Shown here: positions 15,159-21,149 of the stretch, one piece after another | How positions within the stretch are numbered: position 1 is the first letter of the stretch | Layout: every line of letters begins with the position of its first letter | NCBI GenBank assembly: GCA_013153635.1 | Contig: JAADDZ010000019.1 | Coordinates: 1-57,898 of the forward strand | Source: Aquificota bacterium | GTDB lineage: Bacteria > Aquificota > Aquificia > Aquificales > Hydrogenothermaceae | Direction of reading: 5' to 3' | Length of the DNA: 57,898 nt | Notes under the pieces: generated by a model | The model's input: the letters and a program-made list of their open reading frames with translations, nothing else | The model's database searches: none | Told to the model about the DNA's origin: nothing | Translations under genes and position numbers: made by a program

Positions 15159-15457
15159 TGTTTATATTAGCTAATCTGTTAGAAGCGGTAGCCAAGATTT
15201 TGGATACCGCTCTTTTTTTATATATGTGGGTTGTTATCATATCTGCTCTAATTTCATGGGTCAATCCAGACCCTTATAACCCAATAGTTAGGTTTTTGAG
15301 AAATGTTACTGAACCTGTGTATAGGCTCATAAGAAGATATATACCTACCGTTTTTGGAGGTATAGATTTAGCTCCTCTTATTGTTATTTTTATAATAATG
15401 TTCCTAAGATATTTTGTAGTACAATCCTTGTACGAGCTTGCACACAAGTTATCGTAG
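15158..15457 (+). CDS. YggT-family membrane protein
   Basis: About 99 residues with two hydrophobic segments (roughly residues 15-37 and 65-88) around ISWVNPDPYNPIVRFLRNVTE, the YggT hallmark. E. coli YggT has been tied to osmotic tolerance and its homologues to cell-division regions, but the molecular role is not established. I chose the ATG at 15158, which shares one base with the rplQ stop (TGATG). A GTG at 15155 is also possible. The end overlaps the convergent phosphodiesterase gene by nine bases, with no terminator between them. Confidence 0.85.
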   Translation: MFILANLLEAVAKILDTALFLYMWVVIISALISWVNPDPYNPIVRFLRNVTEPVYRLIRRYIPTVFGGIDLAPLIVIFIIMFLRYFVVQSLYELAHKLS

Positions 15458-16225
15458 GTGACTTTCTGTAAGTCTCAATCTTTTAATTTCTTTTTTTTGT
15501 AAGTCTACAAAGAAAGCTTGGAATAAAAGTTCTCCTGTTGCTACTTCATATTTCTTAGGCAGACCTGTAAGGAATTTTTCAATAGGCTCTTCTATCTTCA
15601 TTCCTATAACTGAATGTAATGCCCCTGTTAATCCTATATCTGTAATATAAGCTGTACCTTTTGGTAAAAATATTTCATCTGCAGTTTGTACATGGGAATG
15701 TGTACCAAAGACTATACTAGCTCTTCCATCTACATAATAACCGAAGGCTGTTTTTTCTGAAGTAGCTTCAGCATGAAAATCGACTATGATGTAGTCGACT
15801 TTGTCTTTTATCTGATTGTATATCTCATCAAATTTCCTAAATGGGCAATCTAGAGGAATACCCATAAAAACTCTTCCCATAAGGTTTATCACTGCTATTT
15901 TTTTATTTTCTTTTTCTACAACTGTATATCCTCTACCATTGGCTAAAGGAGGATAGTTAGCTGGTCTTAAAAGATTTTCTTCTGTATCTAAAAGCTCATA
16001 TACTTCCTTTTTATCAAAAATGTGGTTACCTGATGTAAAAACATCTATAGAATACTGTTTTAAGGAGTTTAGTACTTTTTTTGTTACTCCAAACCCTCCT
16101 GCTATGTTTTCTACATTTAGGGTTATAAAGTCTGGTTTGTACTGTTTTATAACAAACGGCAGAAATTGGCTTAATGCCTTTCTGCCAGTTTTCCCTATGG
16201 TATCTCCTATAGATAAAATTTTCAT
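15449..16225 (-). CDS. ymdB: YmdB-family metallophosphoesterase (2',3'-cyclic-nucleotide phosphodiesterase)
   Basis: 258 residues, the normal YmdB length. Metal ligands of the calcineurin-like fold are visible: D8 in SIGDTIG, E39-N40 in LNVENIAGG, the N in SGNHIFDKKEV, the H in DFHAEATSEK and the pair in GTHSHVQTADE. Bacillus YmdB hydrolyses 2',3'-cAMP and interacts genetically with RNase Y. It begins directly after the rny stop, repeating the rny-ymdB pairing seen in Firmicutes, so a linked RNA-turnover role is likely. Confidence 0.9.
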   Translation of the reverse strand: MKILSIGDTIGKTGRKALSQFLPFVIKQYKPDFITLNVENIAGGFGVTKKVLNSLKQYSIDVFTSGNHIFDKKEVYELLDTEENLLRPANYPPLANGRGYTVVEKENKKIAVINLMGRVFMGIPLDCPFRKFDEIYNQIKDKVDYIIVDFHAEATSEKTAFGYYVDGRASIVFGTHSHVQTADEIFLPKGTAYITDIGLTGALHSVIGMKIEEPIEKFLTGLPKKYEVATGELLFQAFFVDLQKKEIKRLRLTESHLR

Positions 16226-17887
16226 CTATTTTGCAACCTCTACGAATCTAGATTCTCTTATTGTGGTTACCTTTATCTGTCCCGGAAAGTCTACTTCCTT
16301 TTCTATTCTTCCAGCTATCTCTTTTGTGAGCAGATATGCTTCCTCGTCTGATACTTTTTGGGCATTTACTATTATTCTCACTTCTCTTCCTGCCTGAATT
16401 GCAAAAGATTTTTCCACATTATCAAATGAGTTAACTATAGCTTCAATCTTTTCAAGCCTGTTTATATACGACTGGAGGGCTTCTCTACGGGCTCCGGGTC
16501 TTGCGGCTGAAAGGGCATCTGCCGCCGCAACTAGGACTGCTTCTGGATACCTTGCTGGCTCATCGTTGTGGTGGTATAAAATAGCATTGATGACAACATC
16601 TGGCTCTCCGTATCTTTTAGCAAGCTCTGCTCCAACTTTTGAGTGTGCGCCTCCTACTTCATGTGATATGGATTTTCCTATATCGTGCATTAATCCTCCT
16701 CTTTTTGCGGCTTTTTCATCAAGTCCTAATTCTGCCGCCATCATTCCTGCTAGATATGCCACTTCTTTTGTGTGAAGTAGTACATTTTGGGTGTAAGATG
16801 TTCTATAGTAGAGTTTACCTATGTAATAGAAAAGTTCAGAATGAACATCAGTAAAACCTAATTCGATGCATGTTTCTTCCCCAATTTTCCTTACATGTTC
16901 GTCCATCTCTTCTTTCACTTTTTCTACTACTTCTTCTATTCTTCCCGGGTGGATTCTTCCGTCTGATATAAGTCTCTCTAAAGATATTTTGGCGATTTCT
17001 CTTCTTAATGGGTCAAAAGAAGATATTGTAACAACATCTGGGGTGTCGTCTATTATTAGGTCGACTCCTGTTGCATATTCAAACGCTCTTATATTTCTAC
17101 CTTCTCTTCCTATTATCCTTCCTTTTATGTCGTTGCTTGGTAGGTCTACTGTAGATACAGTGTAAGAGGTGGTTATTTCAGGAGCTAGTCTCTGTATTGA
17201 TGTAACTAGATTCCATTTTGCTTTTCCTTCTGCTTCTTTCTTTGCTTCTTCTTCTATGTCTTTCATAAGTTTTGCCGCTTCTAGTCTTGCTTCTTCTTCT
17301 ACTTTTTTCATTAGCTCGTTTTTAGCTTCTTCTTTTGTCATGCTTGCTATTCTTTGGAGTTCTAACATATATTGCTCTTCTGCAGTCTTTAGTTTCTGCT
17401 CTTTTTCTAGCAACTCTTTTTCTAATGTTCTTATCTCTTCTTCTAGCTGTTTTATCTCTTTTTCTCTTTTTTCTATTTCTTCTTCTTTATGTTCTATTCT
17501 TGCTATTCTCTTTTCTAGCTGGGCTTCTTTGGTAAGAAGTACTTTTTCTAAGTCTTGGAGTTCTTTTCTTTGTTCTTTGAATTCTTCTTCTATCTCTTTT
17601 CTTCTTTTTAGAATTTCTTTTTCTATTATTATTTCTTGCTGTTTTTTTAGGTCTTCTGCGGCTTTTTCTATCTCTTTGGCTTTTTCTTTTGCCTGCTTTT
17701 CAGCTTCTCTTATTATTTCTTGAGCTTTTCTTTTTGCTTCTTCTTCTATTTTCTCTTTCTGCTGGATTATCCTTAGGGCTTCTTGCTCTTTTTCTTGTAG
17801 TTTTTTACCATAGGTTGCCTTGCACCCTATAAATCCAGCTATTCCTCCTATTGCTAAGGTTGAAATTCCGATAATTATTTCTATCAT
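16226..17887 (-). CDS. rny: Ribonuclease Y
   Basis: 553 residues. An N-terminal membrane helix (residues 1-22) is followed by a long glutamate/lysine coiled coil (about 30-220). A KH domain (IKGRIIGREGRNIRAFE, about 243-260) and an HD domain with GGLMHDIGKSISHEVG come next. RNase Y is a membrane-bound endoribonuclease initiating mRNA decay. The start overlaps the fau stop (ATGA). The coiled-coil region produces a very T-rich plus strand with several spurious reverse reading frames. Confidence 0.97.
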   Translation of the reverse strand: MIEIIIGISTLAIGGIAGFIGCKATYGKKLQEKEQEALRIIQQKEKIEEEAKRKAQEIIREAEKQAKEKAKEIEKAAEDLKKQQEIIIEKEILKRRKEIEEEFKEQRKELQDLEKVLLTKEAQLEKRIARIEHKEEEIEKREKEIKQLEEEIRTLEKELLEKEQKLKTAEEQYMLELQRIASMTKEEAKNELMKKVEEEARLEAAKLMKDIEEEAKKEAEGKAKWNLVTSIQRLAPEITTSYTVSTVDLPSNDIKGRIIGREGRNIRAFEYATGVDLIIDDTPDVVTISSFDPLRREIAKISLERLISDGRIHPGRIEEVVEKVKEEMDEHVRKIGEETCIELGFTDVHSELFYYIGKLYYRTSYTQNVLLHTKEVAYLAGMMAAELGLDEKAAKRGGLMHDIGKSISHEVGGAHSKVGAELAKRYGEPDVVINAILYHHNDEPARYPEAVLVAAADALSAARPGARREALQSYINRLEKIEAIVNSFDNVEKSFAIQAGREVRIIVNAQKVSDEEAYLLTKEIAGRIEKEVDFPGQIKVTTIRESRFVEVAK

Positions 17888-18450
17888 GCCATTTTTCCTC
17901 CTTTTTCGAATTTTGGTTTGATAATACGTGTAGGCGTAACTATTACGTCTACAGGTACATCGTGTCTATCATGGGGAAGTTGTTTTTGAATTTGGAAGTC
18001 ATAGGCTACGCCTATTTTTAGGATTTTTTTATCTTTTAGGAATCTGTCATAAAAACCACTTCCATAACCAAGTCTGTACCCGTATATGTCGAATGCTACC
18101 GCTGGAATTATTGCTACGTCTATAATTTTTGATGAGACCGGTAGTCCTTGGGGTTCTTTTATACCTGCGAACCCTTTTTTTAATTGGGAGATGTTTGATA
18201 TTTTTATGATTTTTAATGTTTTTTCCTCTACTTTTGGAAGAAGGACAGATTTTCTGTTCTGTTTAAGAAGGTAGTTTATTAAGAATCTAAGGTCTACTTC
18301 ATTCTTATGTGGGTAGTAGAGGAGTACAGCTTTTGCTTTTCTAAATTCTGGTAAAAGCAGTATTTTCCTTACTATTTTTATAGAATCTATTATTTTGTTT
18401 TTGTATCTTTCTCTTATTTTTAATAAACGCTTCCTAATCGTATCTTTCAT
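17884..18450 (-). CDS. fau: 5-formyltetrahydrofolate cyclo-ligase
   Basis: 188 residues, close to the ~180-200 of the family. It converts 5-formyl-THF to 5,10-methenyl-THF using ATP. Seen: KAVLLYYPHKNEVDLRFLI, GIKEPQ, PAVAFDIYGYRLGYGSGFYDR (the conserved GyGgGyYDR motif) and the end HDVPVDVIVTPTRII. I chose the ATG at 18450 because GGGAGGT lies 5 bases upstream. An upstream in-frame extension to 18516 runs through the structured RNA and is not credible. Neighbours: a 6S RNA candidate upstream, rny downstream. Confidence 0.93.
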   Translation of the reverse strand: MKDTIRKRLLKIRERYKNKIIDSIKIVRKILLLPEFRKAKAVLLYYPHKNEVDLRFLINYLLKQNRKSVLLPKVEEKTLKIIKISNISQLKKGFAGIKEPQGLPVSSKIIDVAIIPAVAFDIYGYRLGYGSGFYDRFLKDKKILKIGVAYDFQIQKQLPHDRHDVPVDVIVTPTRIIKPKFEKGGKMA

Positions 18451-18452
18451 CT

Positions 18453-18477
18453 GACCTCCCATATAACATGGAAGGTC
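18453..18477 (-). promoter_or_regulatory. Hairpin sequestering the fau ribosome-binding site
   Basis: On the minus strand GACCTTCCAT and ATGGGAGGTC form a 10-pair stem with one G-U pair and a 5-base loop. The GGGAGG of the fau ribosome-binding site is wholly inside the 3' arm, ending 2 bases before the ATG. Such a stem would block initiation until melted or unwound, like an RNA thermometer or a processing-dependent leader. The structure is seen. The function is inference. Confidence 0.55.
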
Positions 18478-18489
18478 ACGCGGATAAAA

Positions 18490-18664
18490 ACTCCGCGAGA
18501 GCCGACGGGATACCATCGGTTTCTGGGTTCAAATAAAAACGTGGGTGCTTTCACTGATACCTCCTTGAGCCAGTTTTGGCTACTAGAGGTAATCAGATGT
18601 TAAGCTCCCTTTTACCCAGTTATAGCCCAGAATAACACGGTACCCCTATCGTACTCCGCAGAGC
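18490..18664 (-). ncRNA. ssrS: 6S RNA candidate
   Basis: The minus strand of the pheT-fau gap folds into one long rod, the 6S RNA architecture. The closing stem pairs 18656-18664 with 18490-18498. The next stem pairs 18639-18646 with 18507-18514, then 18626-18632 with 18521-18527. A central bubble of 16 bases (18610-18625) faces 15 bases (18528-18542). Upper stems pair 18602-18609 with 18543-18550 and 18586-18596 with 18554-18563. The apical AGCC/GGCT hairpin has a 6-base loop. The open bubble mimics melted promoter DNA and would bind sigma-70 RNA polymerase holoenzyme. A run of Ts follows the 3' stem. Placement directly upstream of fau matches ssrS-ygfA of proteobacteria. The length, about 175-185 bases, is right. 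tmRNA and RNase P motifs are absent. Confidence 0.82.
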
Positions 18665-18737
18665 ATATTCAGTTTTGCTAATTTCGTTTAAACTTAATTT
18701 ATCAAATATCATTTTTTCCGCGTTAAACCTTCCAGTT

Positions 18738-21149
18738 TTAAACTCTTAATGTTAATCCTTTAAAACTTTTTTGCAACTGCTTAATAATGTTTTCTACTTC
18801 TTGGTTAACTTCTTCATCAGATAAGCTTCTATCCGATGCTCTAAATTCTACCGAGAATGCTATGCTTTTTTTACCATTTTCTACAAAGTACACATCAAAC
18901 AGTTCTACTTTGTCTATAAGTTTGCTACTTTCTTTTAAAGCTTTTATTAATTTATCCAGTTCTAGATTTTCATCAACAAGAAATGCCAAATCTCTTTTTA
19001 CGCTAGGATATTTTGGGAGTTCTTTAAATATTACAGTATCCTTTTGTTTGTAAAGGGTGTATAGGTATCCTTTTTTTAGTGGTTCTTCTTTTAAGTCTCT
19101 TGGAATGTATCTAAGTTTTAGTTCAGCTACGTATGTATTTTCTGGGATTTCTAGTTTTTGTGCTTTTTCTGGGTGTATCTTTCCTATATATCCTATGTTC
19201 TGGTTTTGTATATCTATCTGTGCTGAATGGAATGGGTGAAGGTAAGGAATGTTAGTTTTTTTGTAAAGTATATCAAAGATTCCTAAACTGTGGATATAGC
19301 TTTCTATTAGTCCTTTTAACTTTAGGAAATCCCATGTTACTGATGTGCTAAACTGATTTTCTCCTTGTGTATATTTGTATCCTTTTATAATATTACCGTG
19401 GACGAGAATACCGATTCTTATCTCTTCGTGTTTTGGGAAAAAAGCTGAAGAAATTTCAAATATTGATATATCTTTGTTTTGGTATTTTATATTTTCTTGG
19501 AACGTCTGGATAAGACTGACAGCAAGGTTGTCTCTCATTATGCTTTGACTTTTTAGTAAATAGTTGACTATCCTTATTTTTGGTGGCTCTATACCTAAAG
19601 TTTTGTATATTTGTTCTCCTACAAAGGTGTAGTTAACAACTTCTGTTAGTCCATTTGCTCTAAGGAAGTCTCTTGCTTGAACTTCAAATTTGAACTCTTC
19701 GCTTTTTTTAAAACCTTCTAGAGAGAGTTTTGGGTATGAAGGTGCAAAGTTGTCAAAGCCTTTTAGTCTTCCTACTTCTTCTACTAGGTCTATCTCTCTC
19801 TCTAGGTCAAACTTCCTAAAAGCTGGTATTGTTGAAACTGTACCTTCATCTGTTATCTCTGTAGGAATCTCCAATCTTTCAAGGATTTCTTTTGATTCTT
19901 CTTTGAGAATTACCTCACCTAGCACTTTTAGAACTGTTTTTTCTCTTAGATGAATTAGTTTTGGGGTGTATGGTTTTGGATATATATCTTTCTCTCCTAC
20001 CGCTTTTCCTTGGGTAGTCTTTAGTATAAGTTCTACAGCTTTGTCTTGGGCATTTGGAAGATTTTCTATGTCTACCCCTCTTTCAAACCTATAGGAGGAT
20101 TCTGTGGATACTGCTAATCTTTTTGCTGTTTTTCGTATAGAGATGCTATCAAATACTGCCGCCTCTAATAGAATGTTCTTTGTGTTTTGGTCTACTTTTG
20201 TATTTTCTCCTCCTATTATTCCTGCTATAGCGATTGGTTTTTCTTCATCTGCGATAACTATATCTGTCTTTTTTAGTTTTCTCTCTTCTCTGTCTAGGGT
20301 AGTTATCGTTTCTCCATCTTTTGCTTGTCTCACTATTATCTGACCTTGTATTTTATCTAAGTCAAAAGCGTGTAAAGGTTGTCCTTCTTGTAGAAGTATG
20401 TAGTTAGTTGCATCTACTATGTTGTTTATCGGTTTTTGTCCAGCTTTTATGAGCCTTAGTCTTATATTTAGAGGAGATTGGGTTACTTCTATATTTTTGA
20501 TTATCACTCCTCTGTATCTATATGTTTTTTCTGTTTTTAACTGTATTTGTGGGATTATTTCTTGCATAATAGATACGATGGGATATTTTTCTTTTCTTTT
20601 TATGTCAAAAATCGCTCCTATCTCTCTTGCTAAACCTTTTACACTTAAGACGTCTGCTCTATTTGGGGTTATCTCTATCTCTATAATATCTTCTTCGCCA
20701 AGTCCTAGAAGTTTTGATGCGTCTATCCCTATTGGTGTATCTTCATCTAATACAAAAATCCCTTCTGAAGATTCTTCTATACCTAACTCTTGTAATGATA
20801 CAAACATTCCTTGTGATTGAATATTTCCAAATGTTACAGGTTTTATCTCTCTGTTTGGGAGTTTCGCTCCTGTTTTTGCAAGAATTACTACTTGTCCTTC
20901 TTTTATGTTCTGGTCTGCTGTTATAACTTGGTATTCTTTTTTTCCATCAGTAACTTTTGTTATTAGTAGTCTTTCTTTTTCTGGGTGCTTCTTTACAGAA
21001 AGTACCTTTACTGTGGTTAGACCGGGAATATACTGTCCAAATTTGTAACTGACAGCTTCTATCCCTGTAGTGTTTAGTTTTTCTGCAACTTTATCAGCTG
21101 GTATTTCTATATCTAAAAACTCTTTTATCCATGAGTATGGTACTTTCAT
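18738..21149 (-). CDS. pheT: Phenylalanyl-tRNA synthetase beta subunit
   Basis: 803 residues, full bacterial length. Domains in order: N-terminal catalytic-like start (KVPYSWIKEFLDIEIPA), tRNA-binding OB domain (about 40-150), B3/B4 editing domain (about 215-385), B5 domain, and a C-terminal anticodon-binding FDX-ACB fold ending SLSDEEVNQEVENIIKQL. It charges tRNA-Phe as an alpha2-beta2 complex and edits Tyr-tRNA-Phe. The start overlaps the pheS stop (ATGA). Confidence 0.98.
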   Translation of the reverse strand: MKVPYSWIKEFLDIEIPADKVAEKLNTTGIEAVSYKFGQYIPGLTTVKVLSVKKHPEKERLLITKVTDGKKEYQVITADQNIKEGQVVILAKTGAKLPNREIKPVTFGNIQSQGMFVSLQELGIEESSEGIFVLDEDTPIGIDASKLLGLGEEDIIEIEITPNRADVLSVKGLAREIGAIFDIKRKEKYPIVSIMQEIIPQIQLKTEKTYRYRGVIIKNIEVTQSPLNIRLRLIKAGQKPINNIVDATNYILLQEGQPLHAFDLDKIQGQIIVRQAKDGETITTLDREERKLKKTDIVIADEEKPIAIAGIIGGENTKVDQNTKNILLEAAVFDSISIRKTAKRLAVSTESSYRFERGVDIENLPNAQDKAVELILKTTQGKAVGEKDIYPKPYTPKLIHLREKTVLKVLGEVILKEESKEILERLEIPTEITDEGTVSTIPAFRKFDLEREIDLVEEVGRLKGFDNFAPSYPKLSLEGFKKSEEFKFEVQARDFLRANGLTEVVNYTFVGEQIYKTLGIEPPKIRIVNYLLKSQSIMRDNLAVSLIQTFQENIKYQNKDISIFEISSAFFPKHEEIRIGILVHGNIIKGYKYTQGENQFSTSVTWDFLKLKGLIESYIHSLGIFDILYKKTNIPYLHPFHSAQIDIQNQNIGYIGKIHPEKAQKLEIPENTYVAELKLRYIPRDLKEEPLKKGYLYTLYKQKDTVIFKELPKYPSVKRDLAFLVDENLELDKLIKALKESSKLIDKVELFDVYFVENGKKSIAFSVEFRASDRSLSDEEVNQEVENIIKQLQKSFKGLTLRV

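Follow-up and report, generated by a model that had tools for sequence, protein, structure and literature searches.

The stretch of DNA analysed here (the window) comprises positions 1-57,898 of the forward strand of contig JAADDZ010000019.1 from an Aquificota bacterium of the Hydrogenothermaceae (GCA_013153635.1). The genes considered in this work lie on its minus strand: pheT, encoding the phenylalanyl-tRNA synthetase beta chain with five Pfam domains (18738..21149), is located upstream of the 6S RNA gene ssrS (18486..18667), which is followed by fau for the 5-formyltetrahydrofolate cyclo-ligase of the ygfA family (17884..18450; PF01812, 134 bits, 7.5e-39), by rny for RNase Y (16226..17887; PF12072, KH and HD domains) and by a gene for a YmdB-like phosphodiesterase (15449..16225; PF13277, 3e-99). 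The start of fau, assigned from its Shine-Dalgarno (SD) sequence and from conservation in the family, is the ATG at 18450, ahead of which GGAGG is found. The longest open reading frame (17884-18516) begins at another ATG, which was rejected as the start, since 18516 falls within the 6S RNA; automatic annotation may set the start of fau 66 bases too far upstream for this reason.

Identity and fold of the 6S RNA

6S RNA restrains the housekeeping RNA polymerase: it binds the enzyme as a mimic of an open promoter and is freed by synthesis of a pRNA. A sequence-only reading of this region had drawn a 6S rod at 18490-18664 and proposed a covariance search. The Rfam family RF00013 matches 18486-18667 on the minus strand over its full length (model positions 1-187 of 187) with 54.5 bits and E 4e-8 (cmscan), above the gathering score of 46.4 bits; its ends differ from those drawn by 3-4 bases each. 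There is no other match to the Rfam 6S model in the genome. The fold reaches -80.3 kcal/mol (RNAfold), with a z-score of -7.65 against dinucleotide shuffles, none of which (0 of 200) was equally stable. Its centroid structure is a rod with a closing stem, a central bubble whose two strands have exactly 16 and 15 bases and an apical stem-loop, in agreement with the nearly symmetric bubble that had been drawn by hand. The stems also covary among relatives, a property whose absence that reading had named as a refutation: in an alignment of 21 relatives from the family of the window, where the length of the RNA ranges from 167 to 192 nt, 22 of the 36 consensus pairs are retained via two-sided changes. 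At two loci of genus g8 (L046 and L047) the lower 5' strand of the RNA contains an extra small hairpin (GGUGGCUUUAUACCAC).

6S RNA has been reported across the Aquificales, following the earlier experimental identification of the Aquifex aeolicus gene, with the candidates from Thermovibrio and Desulfurobacterium called doubtful (PMC4227106). We find the A. aeolicus 6S RNA at 1219725-1219886 (locus L051), compared to the published 1219679-1219903 (PMC4227106), and this match of coordinates confirms the identity of the locus. The RNA of the window resembles it in the rod, the central bubble, the single copy, the location upstream of fau and the whole pheT-6S-fau context. Taken together, the covariance score, the fold and the positional orthology leave it nearly certain that this is a true 6S RNA gene. 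The score exceeds the cut-off just moderately, which would suit some other rod-like or RNA-polymerase-binding RNA, but such an identity is hardly credible for a full-length, single-copy match that is the positional orthologue of an experimentally identified 6S RNA. A match to mir-277 on the plus strand at 18313 (20.5 bits against a threshold of 43) is due to chance.

The 5' strand of the central bubble, as defined by the fold, comprises residues C43-A58 of the RNA (18610..18625), and its edge, UUCUGGGCUAU, is invariant in the 21 relatives. By analogy with U44 of the Escherichia coli 6S RNA, synthesis of the pRNA probably starts on U44 (18624) with an A, rather than a G, giving the predicted product 5'-AGCCCAGAAU.... 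A start with A has been proposed for Hydrogenothermaceae (PMC4227106).

Gene order in Aquificota and beyond

The Rfam model detects 6S RNA in 66 of the 136 genomes of the phylum, and further genomes of the family of the window carry the same RNA as judged by motif. Among the families compared, we take f1, which includes the window, to be Hydrogenothermaceae, f2 to be Aquificaceae (with A. aeolicus among its members) and f5 to be Desulfurobacteriaceae. At all 40 loci examined in f1 and f2, pheT, 6S and fau follow one another in the same orientation, and rny comes next at every locus whose contig is long enough to show it. In f3 the order is 6S-fau-rny without pheT, in f4 only fau-rny is found, and in f5 (L109-L128) the order is pheT-zapA-fau-rny, so that zapA (PF05164) occupies the place of 6S in the other families; RF00013 has no match in any f5 genome, and zapA none in the phylum outside f5. 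At the other 6S-bearing Aquificota loci examined fau follows 6S, in favour of the sequence-only reading, which had proposed a look at the fau neighbours. The order pheT-fau-rny was also seen at L152 (RFFP01000021.1), titled 'Acidobacteria bacterium', which appears to be an Aquificota genome.

In Desulfobacterota and CSSED10-310, outside the phylum, rny is preceded by 6S, at less than about 400 bases and with no fau in between at L155, L158, L161, L185, L191, L196, L206 and L218, and some loci have zapA before 6S. A metagenome-assembled genome of Elusimicrobia exhibits the order zapA-6S-...-fau-rny-ymdB. According to the literature, ygfA (fau) adjoins 6S in alpha-, gamma-, some beta- and delta-proteobacteria and in Firmicutes (PMC9130861), which bears out the likeness to alpha- and gamma-proteobacteria that had been pointed out from the sequence, and ZapB-ZapA-SsrS-(FAU1)-EVE units have been described (PMC7641849). 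The occurrence of 6S near zapA, rny or fau in Desulfobacterota, CSSED10-310 and the Elusimicrobia genome, together with the reported 6S-fau adjacency, makes the suggested very old linkage plausible. These gene orders support an old zapA-6S-fau-rny neighbourhood, with horizontal transfer as a possible alternative source.

A 6S gene of this kind and its adjacency to fau are therefore already known, the report from Aquificales having been missing from the sequence-only reading. What is new is the fixation of pheT-6S-fau-rny in both main Aquificota families, a hairpin over the fau SD, and a long-range stem, incompatible with this hairpin, that brackets the 6S RNA. Neither the hairpin nor the flanking complementary arms figured in that reading, and no description of them was found in the openly accessible literature searched.

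Two exclusive helices around the 6S RNA

The hairpin, UGACCUUCCAU-GUUAU-AUGGGAGGUCA (18452..18478), contains the fau SD sequence GGGAGGU (18454-18460) and is kept in all members of the family. In the window the probability that this SD is unpaired is 0.001, the lowest among the 47 genes of the window, for which the median is 0.46. The hairpin is conserved in both f1 and f2, and none was seen by eye in f3, whose 6S-fau pair lacks pheT in front of it. The region has no Rfam riboswitch match and no further conserved fold was seen that could serve as an aptamer.

The 5' arm of the hairpin with its preceding bases (UCCGCGUGACCUUCC) is complementary to GGAAGGUUUAACGCGGA just past the pheT stop codon, on the other side of the 6S RNA. 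In the window the 5' arm of this bracket stem, GGAAGGUUUAACGCGGAAAAAAUG (18710..18733, core 18717-18733), lies directly 3' of the pheT stop and forms a duplex of -27.5 kcal/mol with the 3' arm, AGUUUUUAUCCGCGUGACCUUCCA (18469..18492, core 18470-18484). The CCUUCC segment is common to the 3' arm and the fau hairpin and, because the same bases serve both, the two helices are mutually exclusive.

Both arms are present in 36 of 36 f1 genomes from nine genera, and the inner helix differs fully by genus: ACGCGGA/UCCGCGU, AGCGGUA/UACCGC, AGCACUGA/UCAGUGCU or GUCAGG..GCUGAA/UUCAGC..CUGAC. The mean duplex energy is -28.0 kcal/mol for matched arms and -19.2 kcal/mol for arms of different genera. None of 20,000 permutations of genera was as good as the true pairing, and the same result was obtained with the common GGAAGG/CCUUCC left out. 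In genus g8 (L046, L047) A+T-rich insertions have moved the arms about 100 nt further from the 6S RNA, yet they still match. Pairing was computed in restricted segments, since RNAduplex run without limits on long flanks joins separate pieces into chains and tells little. As f1 pheT has no frozen codons, we claim no promoter in that gene, and the 6S RNA of f1 is likely transcribed from a promoter in the A+T-rich spacer between the 5' arm and the 6S RNA (18668..18709). Two further candidates were rejected: a small open reading frame from the AUG right after the 5' arm, the protein of which shows no conservation between genera on visual inspection, and bracket-like pairing round 6S at ten loci of other groups (mainly Desulfobacterota), which is weak and driven by composition (323 of 10,000 permutations).

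In f2 the upstream arm is GGGGAAGGCAAG, located inside pheT, where it encodes GEGK. The same four codons are used in 45 of 45 genomes, compared to the next two codons, at which the commonest codon is used in just about 60%, and the exact complement of the arm is found ahead of fau in 45 of 47 genomes. Genus g14 of this family has changed both arms together, with duplex energies of -24.6 for matched and -8.6 for mismatched arms. At one f2 locus (L087, genome G006) the 6S RNA, the fau hairpin and the arm have been lost together, and fau almost directly follows pheT. In f5 the arms are located at the pheT stop codon/zapA SD and before fau, so that the stem encloses zapA (18 of 20 genomes); only 38 of 20,000 permutations equalled the pairing. 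Folding predicts that the f5 zapA SD is free with a probability of 0.12 with the stem and 0.64 without its 3' arm. As DNA, the arms form an inverted repeat and might be protein-binding sites or insertion ends rather than an RNA helix, but complementarity kept despite complete sequence turnover, and the placement of one f2 arm within conserved coding sequence, render this very improbable.

The competition between the helices is evident in folding. Without the upstream arm the probability of an unpaired fau SD is 0.00 in 36 of 36 f1 genomes, and with the arm it rises to a mean of 0.51; the corresponding values without and with the arm are 0.01 and 0.31 in f2, and 0.15 and 0.47 in f5, all subject to the uncertainty of folding energies for a loop of at least 220 nt. 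At 70 C the SD of the window is accessible with a probability of 0.75 with the arm and 0.01 without it, and the 6S rod remains intact inside the bracket; at 37 C with the arm the hidden state is predicted to predominate (0.07). Thus, a ribosome-binding site resides in a local helix and a conserved, exclusive alternative helix would free it, except in g14, where bracket and hairpin barely overlap and no release of the SD is predicted. It could be argued that the hairpin, conserved in two families of thermophiles, is an RNA thermometer or a mere weak-translation element that the upstream complementarity only tunes. We regard this as improbable, as the hairpin without the arm stays closed in silico at 70 C and a thermometer would render the covarying upstream arm superfluous.

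Translation of fau and processing of the 6S RNA

Computation establishes the 6S RNA, the gene order, the two helices, their mutual exclusion and the covariation of the bracket, so that the structure of the flanking elements is well supported. We infer how they affect translation and what purpose they serve in the cell, as well as the place of the f1 promoter. The overlap of the bracket with the fau hairpin recurs in three families with unrelated arms, which speaks for selection acting on the exclusion as such, and hence for a switch in fau translation. We propose, with the chances about even, that the 6S RNA is part of a composite fau leader, in which translation of fau is set by the history of the transcript. 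A local hairpin using ACCUUCC between 6S and fau would hide the SD, and a stem of 14-20 bp, in which ACCUUCC pairs with GGAAGGU...ACGCGGA upstream, would enclose the intact 6S rod and leave the SD free. Transcripts that read in from pheT and still possess the upstream arm would then make Fau. The hairpin would close, and no Fau would be made, when transcription begins at a promoter close to 6S or when 6S has been excised from the RNA. The outcome would be plentiful 6S RNA without overproduction of Fau. It is also conceivable, though we hold this somewhat less firmly, that the entire RNA in between (6S, or zapA in f5) forms the loop of a switch acting over a long range, by which fau translation senses whether the region upstream of 6S is still present on the transcript and the production or maturation of 6S is coupled in cis to folate metabolism.

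The main alternative is that the bracket is a processing stem, cut by a nuclease specific for double strands, such as RNase III, to free the pre-6S RNA as in the maturation of rRNA. The bases shared with the fau hairpin would then be a coincidence, or their sole use would be the removal of the fau mRNA end. The enclosure of a stable RNA and the case of g14 do argue for a role in processing. The length of the stem and its placement round such an RNA are as expected, and g14 retains the stem without release of the SD, which implies that some other reason accounts for the bracket in that genus. In f2, moreover, the 6S RNA overlaps the pheT stop codon and a promoter-like element is located about 200 nt upstream, which would necessitate processing of the 5' end. 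This element, TGGACA-N16-TAAATT, is codon-frozen and lies in pheT 73-79 nt upstream of GGGGAAGGCAAG at L051 and most other f2 loci, g14 excluded; it is likely the promoter of 6S-fau in Aquificaceae. As the element precedes the 5' arm, every f2 6S transcript would initially include that arm and could lose it by processing alone. Ribosomes translating pheT would, in addition, disturb the f2 arm, which counts against a switch, as does the mostly hidden SD predicted for the window at 37 C. Nonetheless, the f5 stem encloses zapA and not 6S, and processing does not explain why, in three families whose arms are unrelated in sequence, the stem repeatedly overlaps the ribosome-binding site of fau. We therefore consider processing as the sole function rather unlikely. 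The two roles can be combined in one device, in which the uncut transcript started upstream would expose the SD, and one that starts at 6S or has lost its 6S would hide it.

The proposed switch has partial counterparts. The E. coli ssrS-ygfA dicistron, which undergoes processing as well as Rho-dependent termination (cited in PMC7641849), resembles it in the co-transcription of 6S and fau, the excision of 6S from a precursor and the link of fau expression to read-through, but in the window control appears to be exerted at the fau SD via alternative pairing, and we found no such hairpin reported for ygfA. SD-sequestering riboswitches and long-range anti-anti-SD controls likewise employ two exclusive helices, one of which masks the ribosome-binding site; here, however, we see no ligand domain, and the partner arm is separated from the hairpin by an entire functional RNA (or zapA). 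A long-range helix round a stable RNA is also found in pre-rRNA processing stems, but in our case the outer strand doubles as the anti-SD of the next gene. The 6S RNA of the window differs from published descriptions in its location within a covarying stem, of which the 6S literature examined makes no mention.

The association of ssrS with fau is among the most persistent pairings of an RNA gene with a protein gene in bacteria. If our proposal is correct, a covarying switch in cis would provide a concrete and testable reason for this linkage, and a regulatory RNA that acts in trans would also serve as the spacer of one that acts in cis.
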